A stretch of DNA of 64,000 bases from Liolophura sinensis (taxonomy: Eukaryota; Mollusca; Polyplacophora; Chitonida; Chitonidae), in contig NC_088295.1 of the NCBI RefSeq assembly GCF_032854445.1, positions 48,657,385-48,721,384 of the forward strand, in the 5' to 3' direction. Below the pieces are notes generated by a model. That model was not told where the DNA came from and did not search any database. It saw only the letters and a list, made by a program, of their open reading frames with translations. Below are positions 30,511 to 62,053 of this stretch, piece after piece. Within the stretch, counting starts at the first letter, position 1; each line of letters opens with the position of its first letter. The position numbers and the translations under genes were made by a program.

Positions 30511-31339
30511 ACACATTTTCTTTGTGGCATTCACGGTTTATGAAAAACACTCCACGAGACTGATGTTGTTTTCTGGTTGCCAAGAAAATGACTTTTGCGT
30601 GGTCCGTATCTCATACCAACATTACCACACTTAAAACATGTGGCCAAAGCATGTCTCACCAAAGTGAGGCGGTGAAATTTGTGGCCCAAGTAGCCACACT
30701 GGAGGGCAACATTCCGAATAAAGCGCTTTCCTTTCAGATTTCTAGCATGAGTTAAGGTGTTACATAGTTCGGCGTGAATGTAAACACACGAGACATAAGA
30801 TATACGAACTGGGTGAATTACCGCCCTTCTTTACTTGTGTGCCTTTCGATCATAGCGTTTAAAAAGGCTTCCATATTTTCATAACCTGACTAATTACACT
30901 GAGGATATGAGTCAGTGAATTTGTGTTTCCTCTCAAAGTACATAATGGTGTCAGAAATCTGAGAAGAAAGCGCTTTATTCGGAAAGTGGCCAACCAGTGT
31001 GGCCACCCGGGCCACAAATGTCACCGACTCACTTTGATTTATTTGATTATTTGATTGGTGTTTTACGCCGCTCTCAAGAATATTTCACTTATACGACGTC
31101 GGCCAGCATTATGGGATTATTATGGGAGGAAACTGGGCAGGGCCCGGAGGAAACCCACGACCATCTGCAGGTTGCTGAGAGACCTTCCCACTTACGGCCG
31201 AAGAAGAAGCCAGCATGAGCCGGACTTAAACTCCAGGCATGCTTTCGGCACATGAAGTGCGGTAATGTTGGTATGAGATATACCGACATCAGTCTCGTGA
31301 AATGTTTACCATAAACTGTGAATGCCACGAAGAAAATTT
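30511..31339. mobile_element. Long inverted-repeat (foldback) element split by a SINE
   Basis: The left arm 30511-30741 is the inverse of 30955-31036 plus 31237-31339. Matches include tctcataccaacattacc against ggtaatgttggtatgaga, and ttccgaataaagcgctttc against gaaagcgctttattcgga. Total arm length is about 185-230 bp around a 213-bp centre. Its right arm is interrupted by SINE 31037-31236. No transposase ORF is visible. Confidence 0.82.
31037..31236 (-). mobile_element. SINE family 1, 5'-truncated, nested in the foldback element
   Basis: Tail, body and the start of the head are present; it is truncated after gccggacttaaactcc. It interrupts the right arm of the foldback element, so it inserted after that element. 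Confidence 0.85.
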
Positions 31340-32037
31340 GTTGCAAGATTTTTATTATGATGCATGTAAGTTGAATGGATACTTTCCACTGACAATTTTC
31401 TGATGAGTGAAAGAAAAAAAAAAACGTTCAGTTCAAATAAGATAGTTACTATATTTCCCCAAGGAAGGTCGCAAATGACATTCACTTCACTTTGTTGAAG
31501 GTGGTTTCAAGTAAGATAAGAGAAGATAACGCATTATGGTTGAGGTTATACACAGTTGTGTTATACACAAGTGATGAATTGCGCTGATGTTTGATACTTA
31601 TGAGTATTATAGTATCTACATGTAGGTAATATAGTGTGACCTTATTGATTGTTCGGTGTTAATATTTAAGTTCGCTTTGAACACAATATTTCAGACATAT
31701 TATGACAGCATATCCAGGTACAGGCAACTCAGAATGCTGGCGTACATACAATGATGTCTGCATGAAACATTATGTCGAAGACACCTGCAGACATGACATC
31801 CCACCTGATCAGAATTTACCAACACCAAACCTCCTACAGCCGATAACCATTCTAATTCTGAGTCATAAAACGTGAAGCCAAATGTAACATTTTGCAATGT
31901 CTTTGAATGGTGACCAGCGTCGAGCTCAACGCTGTATTACCTCCCGAGGACGAGGAGAACAATTATGTACCACCATGGCGGTAAAATATTTCAAGATACA
32001 TATATCTTCCCTGTTATCCGGAACCATGCATCCATTT

Positions 32038-32305
32038 GATTTTATTTATTTATTTGATTTGTGTTTTACGTTGTACTCAAGATTATTTCACTTATACGAC
32101 GGCGGCCAGCATTATGGTGGGAGGAAACCGGGCAGCGCCCCGGAGGAACCCAGGACCATCCGCAGGTTGCTGGAGACCTTCCCGCGTGCACCCGGAGAGG
32201 AAGCCAGCATGATCCGGACTTGAACTCACAGCGACCGCATTGGTGAGAGGCTTCTGGGTCATCACGCTGCGCTAGCGCGCTAACCAATTGAGCCATGGGG
32301 GACCC
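32038..32305 (-). mobile_element. SINE family 1, full-length
   Basis: Complete tail, body and tRNA-like head (minus-strand TGGCTCAATTGGTTAGCGCG). An imperfect flanking repeat (gcatccatt versus gcaaccatt) is plausible as a target-site duplication. Confidence 0.87.
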
Positions 32306-33254
32306 TGCAACCATTAGAGGCACAGTCATTATTTATATATAAATATTGCTTCATCCCTAGGAAAGTTACATGGTGATAAAATAAATTCCTGAAAGAAATA
32401 CTCACGACGGCTATAGAATGAAATGTGGCGTTTGGTTAAGATTTATGCAAATCACGGTATTTGCTCTTTTTGTAGAAATGGGCACCCCTGCTGAGATAAT
32501 TCTTTGTGTCCAAACGAGTCTATATATACAAAATATGGTGCTTTATTTTAACTCAATCACAATCTCGACCAGCAGCCACCGGACTACAACGTTAGTTGTT
32601 TAATTTGTAATAACACAGGCATATTTCAGTGGAAATATTCGAATATACACGTTGGCCTTCAAATGTCTCATGTAGGCCTATAGCTATAATATACAATGGG
32701 TAATCTGCCTCACGTTATTGTTATGTGGCACGGTTTTAACTCGGGATGCTGGAAAATGAGGAAAAAGTGCTTACAGAGCGAAGGAAAGTATAAATGTGTC
32801 CTTAACTTTAGTGCATATCTCTTGAGAGTTGAGTTGAGTTCACACAAGATAAATTTATGCGTGTTCGGCATTTGTATCACTGTGAGGAGTTTAATAGATC
32901 ACCACTATCACCGAGGGTCAAGAGTAGTTTACCTAAAACATTATAGGAGTGTTTCGGTGTGGATATGCGACAGTTTATTTCCGTGCCTTTGTTCTTTAGT
33001 CAGGCCCTTTTTTCGAGACGTAGTACTTATCTATCTAATAAACATGGAAAGGAAAAAAAAATAATCCTGTTTCTTTATTGCCTCTGGTAGTGTTGAACAG
33101 ACATGTACGTGCACGTATGCAGGTCTACACACTAAGACTAGCACAGCAATTCTGAGCCGCCAAAGCATATTTCATCAACAAATATTTATCTTTCATCTAC
33201 AGTTAATGATGTTAGTTCTGAACTTTTAAAATATTCTTACTTATACCCATTTCT

Positions 33255-33760: not shown

Positions 33761-33926
33761 GTGAACTCCTGAGTTTCGAGGGCTCGCCTGTGATGTGCCT
33801 AAACTCACGAGTTTCCAGTACTCCCTGCGATGTGCTTGAACTCCTGAGTTTCCAGAACTCATTAGTGGTGTGTACCTCTCGAGTTTTCAGGACTCACCTG
33901 TGATGTGCTTAAACTCATGGATTTGG
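33761..33926. repeat. ASPG: 37-bp tandem repeat that includes a splice donor
   Basis: About four units of 35-38 bp. The rightmost unit contains the last codons and the donor of the ASPG exon at 33898. The others carry degraded versions of the same junction (minus-strand GCACATCACAGGCGAG and GCACATCGCAGGGAG, against the real GCACATCACAGGTGAG). Confidence 0.82.
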
Positions 33927-34011
33927 CCAAACTTCGAAGCAGATGAATATCTTTGAGGGACACTTCAGAGCGAATCACTTTCATCTCCCCTCGTAGACTT
34001 TTCTTCATTTT
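33898..34011 (-). CDS. ASPG: ASPG-like exon: linker after the asparaginase domain
   Basis: Acceptor actattccttag and donor gtgagtcct. It has exactly 38 codons in phase 0. KSLRGEMKVI corresponds to the LRGEM motif at the end of the catalytic part of ASPG. Its donor lies in the tandem array 33761-33926. Confidence 0.88.
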
Positions 34012-34279: not shown

Positions 34280-34538
34280 TAGTATATTTATTTATTTGAT
34301 TTGATTGGTGTTTTACAACGCACTCAAGAATATTTCACTTATACGGCGGCGGCCACATTATGGCAGTGGAAGGAAACCGGGCAGAGCCCAAGGGAAACCC
34401 ACGACCATCCGCACGTTGCTGGCAGACCTTCCACGTACGGCTGGAGAGAAAGCCAGCATGAGCTGGACTTAAACTCACAGTGATCGCATTGATGGGAGGC
34501 TCCTGGGACATTGCGCCGTGCTGGCGTGCTCGGTCACG
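34280..34538 (-). mobile_element. SINE family 1, near full-length
   Basis: Tail, body and head are present. It is flanked by GACCCACC at 34272-34279 and 34539-34546, consistent with a short target-site duplication. Confidence 0.84.
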
Positions 34539-43021: not shown

Positions 43022-45702
43022 GTGATTTATCTGTTGACCGAACCAGCTCAGAGGAAAAAAAATAAAGCAATCGAGCTGAGAACTAATCAAAATAGCCACA
43101 ATGTCATTATAATCGCTGTGGGAAGGGGCCTACCAGTTTCGGCTTGGAGTAATATAAAGTTTGGTCAAGCTATACAACAAGCTATAGGTAATATCAAGGA
43201 AGTCAAGAAGTATGGTACCAAAGACATCTTAATGAAATGCTCAGGTCCTGCACAAGTTAAAAAACTTTAGGTTTAAATACACTTATGGGAAGGGATACAC
43301 AATACAGCCATCGACCATTTCTGTTCGAGAAGTTATACATACGGTGTGGAAGAGTTGACACAGGATGATGTTTTGGGAGCGCTGAAGAAGGGTAAGTGTG
43401 TTACAGTTGAAAGAATGTGTAAGGGAAAAGACAAAATTAAAACGCCATACATGTTGCTGTATTTCGACCTGAAGGAATTACCCACTGAAGTCACTTTAGG
43501 TCACGTCAGGCCTACGTCCATATTTCGACCCCATGCAGGGGTAAGCGGAGATGTCTGAGGTGTTCAGGCGACCATGATTTTGAGGATTGCAACAACTTAG
43601 AGAGACCAGTGTGTCAACCGCGATTCTCCCGGTCACTCGTCGGCATACCTCGGATGTACTAATAGGAAGCAAATGGACAGAGCCCACTACATCCGGGTTA
43701 CCCAAAAGATCTCGTTCTCTGAAGCCCTGAGGAATGTAAGATATGACACAAGATAGACAGCCGTACCTTTGTGGGTCCTGAAGAGAGAACGTTGATAGAA
43801 GGTGATATTTCACCATCTTCTCCAGTATAACCAACCGTAATCCAGGCCATAACACAGTTTAAACGTGTCAAACCTGTCATGAAGTCCGCTTCAACCCAAA
43901 CTGAATCCACCTCCTCTAGACAAACCGAAGATCTATCTTTTAATATGGCTACTCGTATCATTGCCATATTTGCTGAAATTATGCTGAAAGTCTTTGACCT
44001 GAACGACAACAAGACCTTCGTCTTTGAAATACTCCGTACCACCCAGGCCCGTTTGGGGCCCGAACTAGTAATTTTTTCTCCTTCAACTTGTGTATTGAAC
44101 AGTTTAGCGGAAAACGCCGATTCATAAAGTATTCTCTCACTAGCTTGTATTTATATCTTGCCCTGCTTTATTTTACAACAATGGCTTTTCATCTGCTTCA
44201 TCATAACATAAGAGGCATTGGCACGCACGGACAAGAATTTAAGTTCTACACTTTTAATATGAATCCTTCTCCACATGCCATATGTTTACAAGAAACATTC
44301 TTAAAGCCACACCTCAGTTTTACGCACCCCAGGTATTTTTTAAAGGAGAAGGAAATTATTTAAAAATTACACTATATGCTGAAAAGAGCACATTTTTTCT
44401 CTCTGGTGGTGCCTGCTGCATAATTTTGCGATTTTTCCTCGCCATACACGTAAAGCCTGAAAACGGCAAAGCTGGCATAAATCGCTGAGTCCATCGCGTC
44501 CTCCATGTTTAACACGCTGTAATGTGTTGCCTCTCAGCCAATGAGAGTCGTTAAAACTGCCGACTTGTTCGTGTAAACGCGGAACCTATGTCCAACATTC
44601 CGATTTCCCGATCGTCAAGCGGAAAACGAACTGTACTGTTTGCTAATTTCTGGGAAGAAGAGTTTTACCGGAAATGTACGAACTACCCTTCGGCGGTTTC
44701 CGTCGGCAATTCTCCTCCTAACATACAAGACTTCAGGACTAGTTCTTAGGGAAAATGGAGTCGCCCACAGCGGATTTTGGCGCTGACTTTATTTACAATT
44801 TATCAACTTGAAGTACATATTAGAATTTTTTATGGCATGCACTCGCAAGGAAATGCATACTCTTTTCAATCGTATTTGACTGATATTTAAATTCTCTTCT
44901 CCTTTAAGGAGAATTGACAAGTATGCAAGGGACGATGGGGGGGGGGACTTGCCATGTTCCTTAAACGTGGGATTTCATCTTCTGAAATTAAAATCCCCCA
45001 GCTTAAAAACAATGAGGCCCAAAGCTTTAATATAGCAAGGCCTTCTGGCCCTGCTGTCAGCATTGTTAACATATATAACCCCTCCAAACGTGTCAAGCGG
45101 AACGATCGAAACATTATTATGTCTGTCGTTATCCATTCATTTATTTTGTGCGGGGATTTTAATGCCTACAGTCCGATCTAGGGGTAATGCTACCACCAAC
45201 CGTAATGGGAAGTTACCACTAACTGTAATGGGAAGACTGTCTCTGAGTTTATCGATGATTACAACATTTGTGTACTTAATGATGGGACGGGCACTTGCAC
45301 TCAGGCAGTGTGTCTCACTTTGACATTAAGTTATGGTCATCCGACACAAGTTTGTCCTTCGATTGGTCAGTCGATACTACTTCAGCATGTGGCGGTGACC
45401 TCCTCCCTATTTTAGCCTAGTGTAATTTCCCCCTTGTGTTAACGAATTCGGTCACACTCAAAGCTAGAGTGTCAAATTTGCTAACTGGCCACTTTACCAG
45501 AAATATGTACTAACTGGTTCTCGGATATTTTCACTGATAATGATGTAAGCATATTTTGTGATAATATTTTCAGTGTTATTAATGCTGCAGCCGCCAAAGC
45601 TATCCCCAAGTCAGTGTGGATTTACAATAAAATGCCCGTACGTAGTTGGAATGACGATTGCTCCAGGGCAATTGAAGAACGTATATATCTCTCAACGTTC
45701 TC
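43022..45702 (+). mobile_element. Decayed jockey/CR1-type LINE, ORF1 and endonuclease remnants
   Basis: ORF1 remnants run from 43022 to about 43950, with several frame changes. They end in a zinc knuckle (RRCLRCSGDHDFEDC, C-x2-C-x3-H-x4-C) and a KISFSEAL-like tail. ORF2 starts near 44180 with an AP-endonuclease-like domain (HHNIRGIGTHGQEF, CLQETFLKPH, VNIYNP, FILCGDFNAYSP). It decays before the reverse transcriptase, the last recognisable part being PKSVWIYNKMPVRSWNDDC near 45600-45660. Repeat B (44411-44853) interrupts ORF2. The element lies antisense in an ASPG intron and ends against the minisatellite at 45703. Confidence 0.85.
44411..44853 (+). repeat. Dispersed repeat 'B', inverted copy of 12114-12550
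   Basis: Same sequence as the reverse complement of 12114-12550 with roughly 10-15% differences by eye. It interrupts the LINE endonuclease region and is therefore younger than that LINE. The open frame (FWEEEFYRKC) is preserved apart from a stop codon. Confidence 0.85.
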
Positions 45703-46141
45703 GAGAGATATATAGGAGGATAGCACCTCTAACACCTACGGGAGATGAAGAAGGATAGCAACTCCTATATTTACGGGAGGCAGAGAGGGGAGGATACTAC
45801 CTCTTACATTTCGGGGGAAACGGAGAATACGACCTCTTACACTTCGGTGGATAAGGAGAGGTGGATACCATCTCTTACACTTTGAGGGAAAGAGAGAGGA
45901 GGATACCAGCTCTTACATTTAGGATACCACCTCTTACAGTTAGGGGCAAAAGGAGAGGAGGATACCAACTCTTACACTAAGGGGAGAAAGGAGAGGAGGA
46001 TACCAACTCTTACACTTCGGGGGGGGGGGATAAGGAGAGGAGGATACCAACTCTTACACTTTGGGGGGGATAAGGAGAGGAGGATACCACCTCTTACACT
46101 TCGGGGGATAAGGAGAGGAGGATACCACCTCCGATACTTAC
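45703..46141. repeat. ASPG: About 40-bp minisatellite derived from an exon-intron junction
   Basis: Roughly ten units of the type aggataccacctcttacac...gggggataaggagagg. The first units on the left carry tatttacgggaggcagagag, and the right end runs into the ASPG exon, whose own end on the plus strand is cttacgggaggtacagagag. Thus units copy the last exon bases and the donor. Confidence 0.9.
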
Positions 46142-46274
46142 GGGAGGTACAGAGAGGAGGATAATTCCTCCATATTGTCTAGGGTTATGCCATGCCTTAG
46201 AGCGTACTCTCGGTCGTGAAACAAGGGACTTTCAATGAGCTCGTTGTATAGATAATTCGCTTCCGGTTCATATC
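46142..46274 (-). CDS. ASPG: ASPG-like exon 2: N-terminal asparaginase segment
   Basis: Acceptor cgtttcacacag and donor gtaagtatc. It reads YEPEANYLYNELIESPLFHD and EYALRHGITLDNM, matching the ILRTLPMFHDEEHARARGLSEDTL region of ASPG. The exon begins with two bases completing Gly and ends with two bases of a codon, so the next exon must start with one base. The exon at 41744 begins in phase 0, so one exon is missing between them. Confidence 0.9.
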
Positions 46275-61782: not shown

Positions 61783-62053
61783 TTATTTATTTATTTATTT
61801 GATTGGTGTTTTACGCCGTTCTCAAGAATATTTCACTTATACGACGGCGGCCAGCATTATGGTGGGTGGAAACCGGGCACAGCCCGGGGGAAACCCACGA
61901 CCATCCGCAGGTTACTGGCAGACCTTCCCACTTACGGCCGGAGAGGAAGCCAACATGAGCTGGACTTGAACTCACAGCGACCACATTGGTGAGAGGCTCC
62001 TGGGTCATTGCGCTGCGCTAGCGCGCTAACCGACTGAGCCACGGAGGCCCCTG
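61783..62053 (-). mobile_element. SINE family 1, best-preserved full-length copy
   Basis: Tail, body and head are complete and close to the consensus. An exact 10-bp duplication, GTACAATGAT, flanks it (61773-61782 and 62054-62063). Lies in an intron of the coiled-coil gene. Confidence 0.94.

Follow-up and report, generated by a model that had tools for sequence, protein, structure and literature searches.

Copies of exon-intron junctions expanded into minisatellites in the chiton Liolophura sinensis, with a lean toward intron 5' ends

Mirages, tandem copies of exon-intron boundaries, have been described in amphioxus in Adh3, in the globins BflGb6 and BflGb9, and in the TnC and PGBD5 genes (PMC3087553, PMC3902484). 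In the portions of these accounts available to us, the edges of a mirage cluster escape homogenisation and mirages are proposed as a route to new introns (PMC3087553), and neither a donor bias nor an estimate of frequency was found there (PMC3087553, PMC3902484). Allele-length and somatic instability, with aberrant mRNAs absent, are likewise reported for amphioxus mirages. Tandem genomic duplication is reportedly also a route of intron gain, as in the Rogers model and the potato RdRp case. The chiton arrays reported here share with that model the tandem duplication of a segment carrying splice signals, but in them the copied segment straddles a junction that was already present, and it lies within an existing intron. 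In human segmental-duplication genes, according to the accessible part of the account, minisatellites with units of about 30 bp and four repeats on average occur at exon-intron boundaries; 27 intron modifications are reported, and some cases are linked to new introns by way of cryptic splice sites (PMC2812944).

The arrays that we describe in the chiton correspond to amphioxus mirages in being minisatellite-like boundary copies at either kind of splice site (5' or 3'), with AG/GT signals in many of them. The mirages are the same thing as the array for which the original prediction knew of no standard category, so that a category does exist (PMC3087553, PMC3902484). Unit lengths are comparable (10-72 bp for amphioxus Adh3, as cited in PMC3087553), ancestral edge units enclose a homogenised interior in amphioxus as in the ASPG array below (PMC3087553), and the PGBD5 array abuts the 5' splice site as in the chiton (PMC3902484). 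The host differs, being a mollusc, and the chiton arrays are known from the sequence of one assembly alone. The human internal tandem repeats are likewise minisatellites at exon-intron boundaries, but that set concerns exon and intron length changes between recent paralogues, with RNA evidence, and its units are not described, in the accessible part, as copies of a donor junction retained within a long-standing intron (PMC2812944). Given these human cases, we do not claim that junction arrays were otherwise confined to lancelets. In the open-access literature, to the extent of its available text, arrays of junction copies called mirages were found only for lancelets, and a molluscan case of junction copying was not found; the accessible text on an abalone intron minisatellite does not locate it at a junction (PMC6905558), and copied junctions are not described in the accessible parts of PMC12783039, PMC4039745 and PMC3862624. 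The apparent novelties here are the phylum, the frequency in the sample and the lean to donors.

The window, a stretch of 64,000 nucleotides of contig NC_088295.1, carries on its minus strand an exon whose 3' end is the starting point of the analysis (a slash marks an exon-intron boundary throughout):

46142..46274 (133 bp), minus strand: ASPG-like exon, from splice signals and frame
46134..46141, minus strand: authentic donor GTAAGTAT, 5' end of the intron after the exon ending at 46142

The exon, translated as GYEPEANYLYNELIESPLFHDREYALRHGITLDNMEELSSSLYLP, is preceded by the acceptor CACACAG and followed by GTAAGTAT, with the donor G at 46141. Together with six further predicted or aligned gene pieces, it matches the type I asparaginase model NF006998 (E 2.5e-61; 207.8 bits, under the curated cut-off of 376), and the same chain matches PF00710 (2.1e-28) and PF17763 (1.5e-20), which makes ASPG a fair name for the gene; the 62-aa open reading frame of the exon alone gave no match in Pfam or PDB searches. 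According to a position weight matrix (PWM) trained on chiton donors curated in nine genes, the authentic donor is weak, scoring 2.9 where the lowest tenth of curated donors ends at 4.4. The reading frame across it is CCG-TAA, so that translation would stop immediately if the intron were retained or a downstream decoy used, and decoy use would truncate the ASPG protein.

As had been predicted, an array runs straight on from this exon:

about 45690..46169, minus strand: minisatellite of mostly 37-44 bp units, from TRF rows at 45785-46163, the unit split and shuffles
45802..46097, minus strand: nine donor-like GTAAGA sites in middle units, PWM 3.2-5.7
45767..45774, minus strand: distal donor copy CCTCCC/GTAAATAT, G at 45774, from the unit list
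45732..45739, minus strand: further distal donor copy TCATCTCCC/GTAGGTGT (TCTCCC/GTAGGTGT), G at 45739, read from the unit list

The array begins within the exon, about 28 bp before its end (46169), is continuous with it and ends at about 45690, its first unit consisting of the last ~28 bp of the exon and the donor. TRF reported 38 bp x 6.2 at 45921-46163 and more rows from 45785, and splitting at an anchor gave 11 rows, two of them fused, which are mostly 37-44 bp long with one truncated unit of 22 bp. A donor-like sequence after CCTCCC, which the original prediction had ascribed to the distal units, is present there as CCTCCC/GTAAATAT. The middle units have a GTAAGA variant instead: they lack CCTCCC/GTAARTAT, and most read CCCCGAAGTGTAAGAGG or a variant of it, with GTAAGA a few bases further on (G at 46097, 46057, 46013, 45975, 45937, 45916, 45878, 45840 and 45807). 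Judged by eye from the unit list rather than from a tree, the edge units at both ends resemble the junction and the inner units share a drifted variant. A genome search with the array (609-Mb assembly, 632 contigs, with simple repeats and very common words skipped) found it in one place only, where a dispersed satellite or a transposon-borne minisatellite would occupy many.

Alignment supports the descent of these units from the junction. The last 30 bases of the exon plus 12 of the intron scored 47 against the array, and 300 shuffles, which kept dinucleotides but not longer pyrimidine runs, gave a mean of 20.2 (s.d. 3.0, z = 8.8) and a best score of 30-31. Against the far-end 126 bp alone z rose to 10.8, with the unit that carries the distal donor copy identical to the exon end and donor at 34 of 41 positions, CCTCCC/GTAA-TAT included, which bears out the relation of the units to the exon end that had been proposed. 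Exon bases alone gave z = 5.4 for the whole array and 6.5 for its far end, and the intron past the array did not match the exon and donor (z = -0.2). The repeat unit spans the exon-intron boundary, as in the definition of a mirage. Three copies still align to the exon and donor at threshold, with an identity of 0.79 in the exon part and GT in register in one of the three; so few aligning copies mark the array as a degraded member of its kind, whose middle units alone would not prove descent. In a paralogue on contig C6, the matching exon ends at the same aligned residue (SSTLFLP/ vs SSSLYLP/), so the exon end predates the array. We conclude that the array at 46 kb is in all likelihood a tandem expansion of the exon-intron junction.

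A second array, which we take to be the other donor-derived array foreseen for this gene, lies on a later exon:

33898..34011, minus strand: predicted later ASPG exon, from the gene model and sequence
33764..33917, minus strand: 37 bp x 4.2 array that begins within the exon at 34011-33898, about 20 bp before its end, from TRF and sequence

It sits on the exon donor CACATCACAG/GTGAGTCC and repeats TTTAAGCACATCACAG/GTGAGTCC in varied form; by eye, its units are unrelated to those at 46 kb. Beyond the donor of the matching exon, the C6 paralogue carries a 64 bp x 23 array, which starts 18 bp into the intron and would thus not count as touching the donor; by eye, its units differ from those at the donor of this exon in the window (contig C1). 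At a later exon of the paralogue, the end GGCTCACAG/GTGAG is present in 30 copies within 2.6 kb, with GT intact in 28 of them. The two ASPG genes thus hold three junction-spanning arrays and one donor-near array. Separately, a dispersed repeat with a translation like LTNAVAVSSSPAHAGFLSGRKWEGLPATCGWSWV occurs throughout the window (at 853-1079, 31042-31310, 32036-32320, 34295-34512, 61790-62017 and elsewhere) and in the C6 ASPG region.

Since the ASPG arrays had been located via the original finding, they were kept out of the frequency sample, for which genes were picked by protein family, blind to repeats. Nine chaperonin genes, anchored on 47 of 50 PF00118 matches (the other three, at two loci, fall in long open frames), supplied 92 introns, each between neighbouring curated exons. 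Hand curation of a dynamic-programming model, guided by CCT sequences, supplied their exons; all other exon ends were set by score. Adding 111 exons from AAA, DEAD, ABC and myosin genes (18 of 20, 35 of 49 and 18 of 19 matches, and the best 40 of 81, respectively) yielded 200 donors and 206 acceptors after uncertain sites had been dropped, namely 6 of 206 donors (L069, L077, L087, L107, L148 and L152) and 6 of 212 acceptors (L068, L070, L077, L110, L111 and L121). Matches were excluded before any look at arrays, on grounds of open frames longer than about 250 aa, multiple stops, near-duplication or rank, and one DEAD match (C1:54011693) was left out without a stated reason. Cut-offs in this sample were slightly looser than in an earlier one of 144 donors and 151 acceptors.

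Arrays cover 16% of the intron bases of the nine chaperonin genes, in which there are 21 arrays of at least 60 bp. Seven of the 21 start upstream of a donor or no more than 15 bp past it, and one ends at an acceptor. Uniform placement within the intron would give 0.79 donor arrays (P = 4e-6); allowing the seed to overlap the exon by one unit, with unit lengths entered by hand, raises the expectation to 2.54 (P = 0.006), and removing gene G5 as well leaves 4 arrays against 1.83 expected (P = 0.09). The predicted enrichment of array starts at donors is thus seen in the sampled genes under the first two calculations and fades without G5. This gene (C8:53403323-53413982) has five arrays of at least 60 bp, three at donors, two of those junction-copied, and one ending at an acceptor; we presume it to be CCT-gamma-like. 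Donor arrays may cluster by gene.

Across the whole sample, arrays touch 12 of 200 donors and 5 of 206 acceptors (p = 0.06), or 12/200 and 6/207 if the uncertain acceptor L068, near which an array ends, is included (p = 0.10). Of the 200 donors, 11 have the junction itself copied in the adjoining intron, as do 2 of the 206 acceptors (p = 0.009); p is 0.015 without the locus L056 and 0.037 when L068 is counted in addition (10/199 vs 3/207). The 11 donor matches comprise seven plain arrays, the duplicated exon of L056, a single copy at L112, and the marginal L138b and L144 (z 6.3 and 5.2). About one sampled chiton donor in twenty to thirty therefore carries a copied junction. The contrast was stronger in the first sample (7/144 donors vs 0/151 acceptors) and weakened when ABC and myosin genes were added.

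Array edges were also counted by distance from the two kinds of site. Up to 15, 50, 100, 200, 300 and 400 bp, successive bins hold 12, 3, 7, 5, 3 and 5 near edges after donors and 5, 2, 2, 7, 6 and 6 before acceptors. From -60 to 100 bp around donors there are 19 edges in 32.0 kb, against 13 in 57.6 kb at 101-400 bp (ratio 2.6, p = 0.005), the exposure being approximate because the fragments have about 400 bp of flank and do not place the next exons. Relative to the same 101-400 bp, the ratio is 2.2 (p = 0.016) for -120 to 100 bp, 3.1 (p = 0.003) for intron bases 0 to 100, and 2.6 (p = 0.021) for 16 to 100 only. With exposure limits matched, as they were for donors, acceptors show no excess: 9 arrays lie within 100 bp and 19 at 101-400 bp, and the ratios for the -120, -60, 0-100 and 16-100 limits are 0.61, 0.84, 0.90 and 0.71. 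Within 100 bp, 22 donor arrays stand against 9 acceptor arrays (bootstrap over 112 loci, P = 0.004). The shared mechanism that had been proposed for exon borders therefore finds partial support at donors, where edges are 2.2-3.1 times denser, and none at acceptors.

Our main reading, to which we assign a probability of roughly 0.87, is that a junction segment was tandemly duplicated and then expanded, by the process that makes mirages in amphioxus, here acting in a mollusc, frequently and with a lean to intron 5' ends. In the ASPG gene, the last ~28 bp of the exon and the first ~11 bp of the intron would have been duplicated in tandem, plausibly by slippage or break-repair duplication, and the duplicated segment would have grown into an array of roughly twelve units. 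Since exon end, frame and donor stay intact in the unit adjoining the exon, all further copies are intronic and the coding sequence survives, at little cost unless decoys are used; the intronic copies would accordingly be near-neutral provided that splicing uses the first donor. They may then have turned over in the fashion of a minisatellite, a variant spreading through the middle units while both edges kept the ancestral junction. The lean to intron starts could reflect a donor-linked mutational bias or selection.

In one alternative, arrays arise uniformly along genes, those overlapping donors being survivors whose exonic part was kept by selection, a serious possibility that we put somewhat below even odds. 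In its favour, 16% of chaperonin intron bases lie in arrays and yet the first base of the intron falls in an array at only 5 of 92 donors, and arrays spanning acceptors occur too (L148 and L138b). The two- to three-fold rise in edge density near donors, with no rise near acceptors, is harder to reconcile with it.

That rise, the excess of donor over acceptor arrays within 100 bp and the seven chaperonin arrays where 0.79 were expected are consistent instead with a donor-specific process that seeds duplications at intron starts, through nicks or R-loops behind the polymerase, microhomology of AG/GTRAGT or U1 binding. We put such a process, too, somewhat below even odds, since allowing for seed overlap and omitting G5 shrink the chaperonin excess as given above, touching arrays differ only at p = 0.06, and the comparison could be affected by selection on branch point and acceptor. 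The originally suggested mechanism, at work on exon borders of any kind, is not needed given the absence of an acceptor excess, the array cover of 16% and the shrinking donor excess. The stronger proposition that minisatellites repeatedly originate at the chiton 5' splice site, with a mutational process at intron starts that keeps copying exon-donor junctions, appears doubtful to us. If true, it would mean a supply of cryptic exons and donors that differ in age and are continuously replenished, a possible source of new exon ends and introns, and a chiton process either convergent with that of lancelets or as old as it. With arrays leaning to donors alone, the existence of a mutational process linked to donors can be put to a direct test.

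It is improbable that the repeats are retained for a function of the extra donor-like sites, in U1 binding or as alternative 5' splice sites. The nine GTAAGA sites outscore the real donor (3.2-5.7 vs 2.9), several arrays keep GT in all copies, and in 7 of the 10 arrays examined the copies match the six bases of the donor slightly better than the exon part, for example 1.00 vs 0.94 in the array at G5:8009 and 1.00 vs 0.95 in L136. This difference is small, however, and is reversed in the other three (C6, 0.82 vs 0.92; G1, 0.92 vs 0.96; G6, 0.83 vs 0.85); GT is lost in 10 of 20 copies of G6, and any ASPG decoy would come after the in-frame TAA. Finally, the chance adjacency of an unrelated pyrimidine-rich minisatellite is very improbable: the units are of low complexity and, like the exon end, pyrimidine-rich, but the best shuffled score lies far below 47, z reaches 10.8 at the far end, and other genes show the same arrangement with different units.

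The sampled arrays form an age series from near-perfect to badly decayed, with the ASPG array at 46 kb among the decayed. GT is intact in every copy of the near-perfect arrays (L099, 4/4; G5:8009, 10/10; L136, 6/6; G1, 6/6), in 5/7 and 4/6 copies of the middling L081 and G5:6579, and in half of those in G6. Such a series offers material for studying the origin of junction copies, splicing past decoys and the fate of copies as exons or introns.

Several single loci deserve mention. In a myosin gene (L148, C1:67512093-67513712, positions 162-458), a 95 bp x 3.1 array copies an exon start with TTTTCAG/CCAACCCCTT. At an ABC-transporter locus (L112, C1:89875398-89876447, oriented position ~632), the exon end is copied once, 39 bases downstream; the gap, GTAACT..TTTTGACAG, starts with GT and ends with AG and may be either a tiny intron or an incipient array. 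L056 (C1:39401194-39402525) contains two similar AAA-domain exons, 447-606 and 708-867, 261 bp apart and both ending RGESEKLVRLLFEM/GT; it is a tandem exon duplication, and the duplicated exons are perhaps mutually exclusive. Elsewhere in the assembly, contig C99 (G000:C99, 108,685 bp) has seven COX1 matches, about one every 15.5 kb; from this periodicity, the contig looks like concatenated mitochondrial genomes, and the concatenation is probably an assembly artefact.
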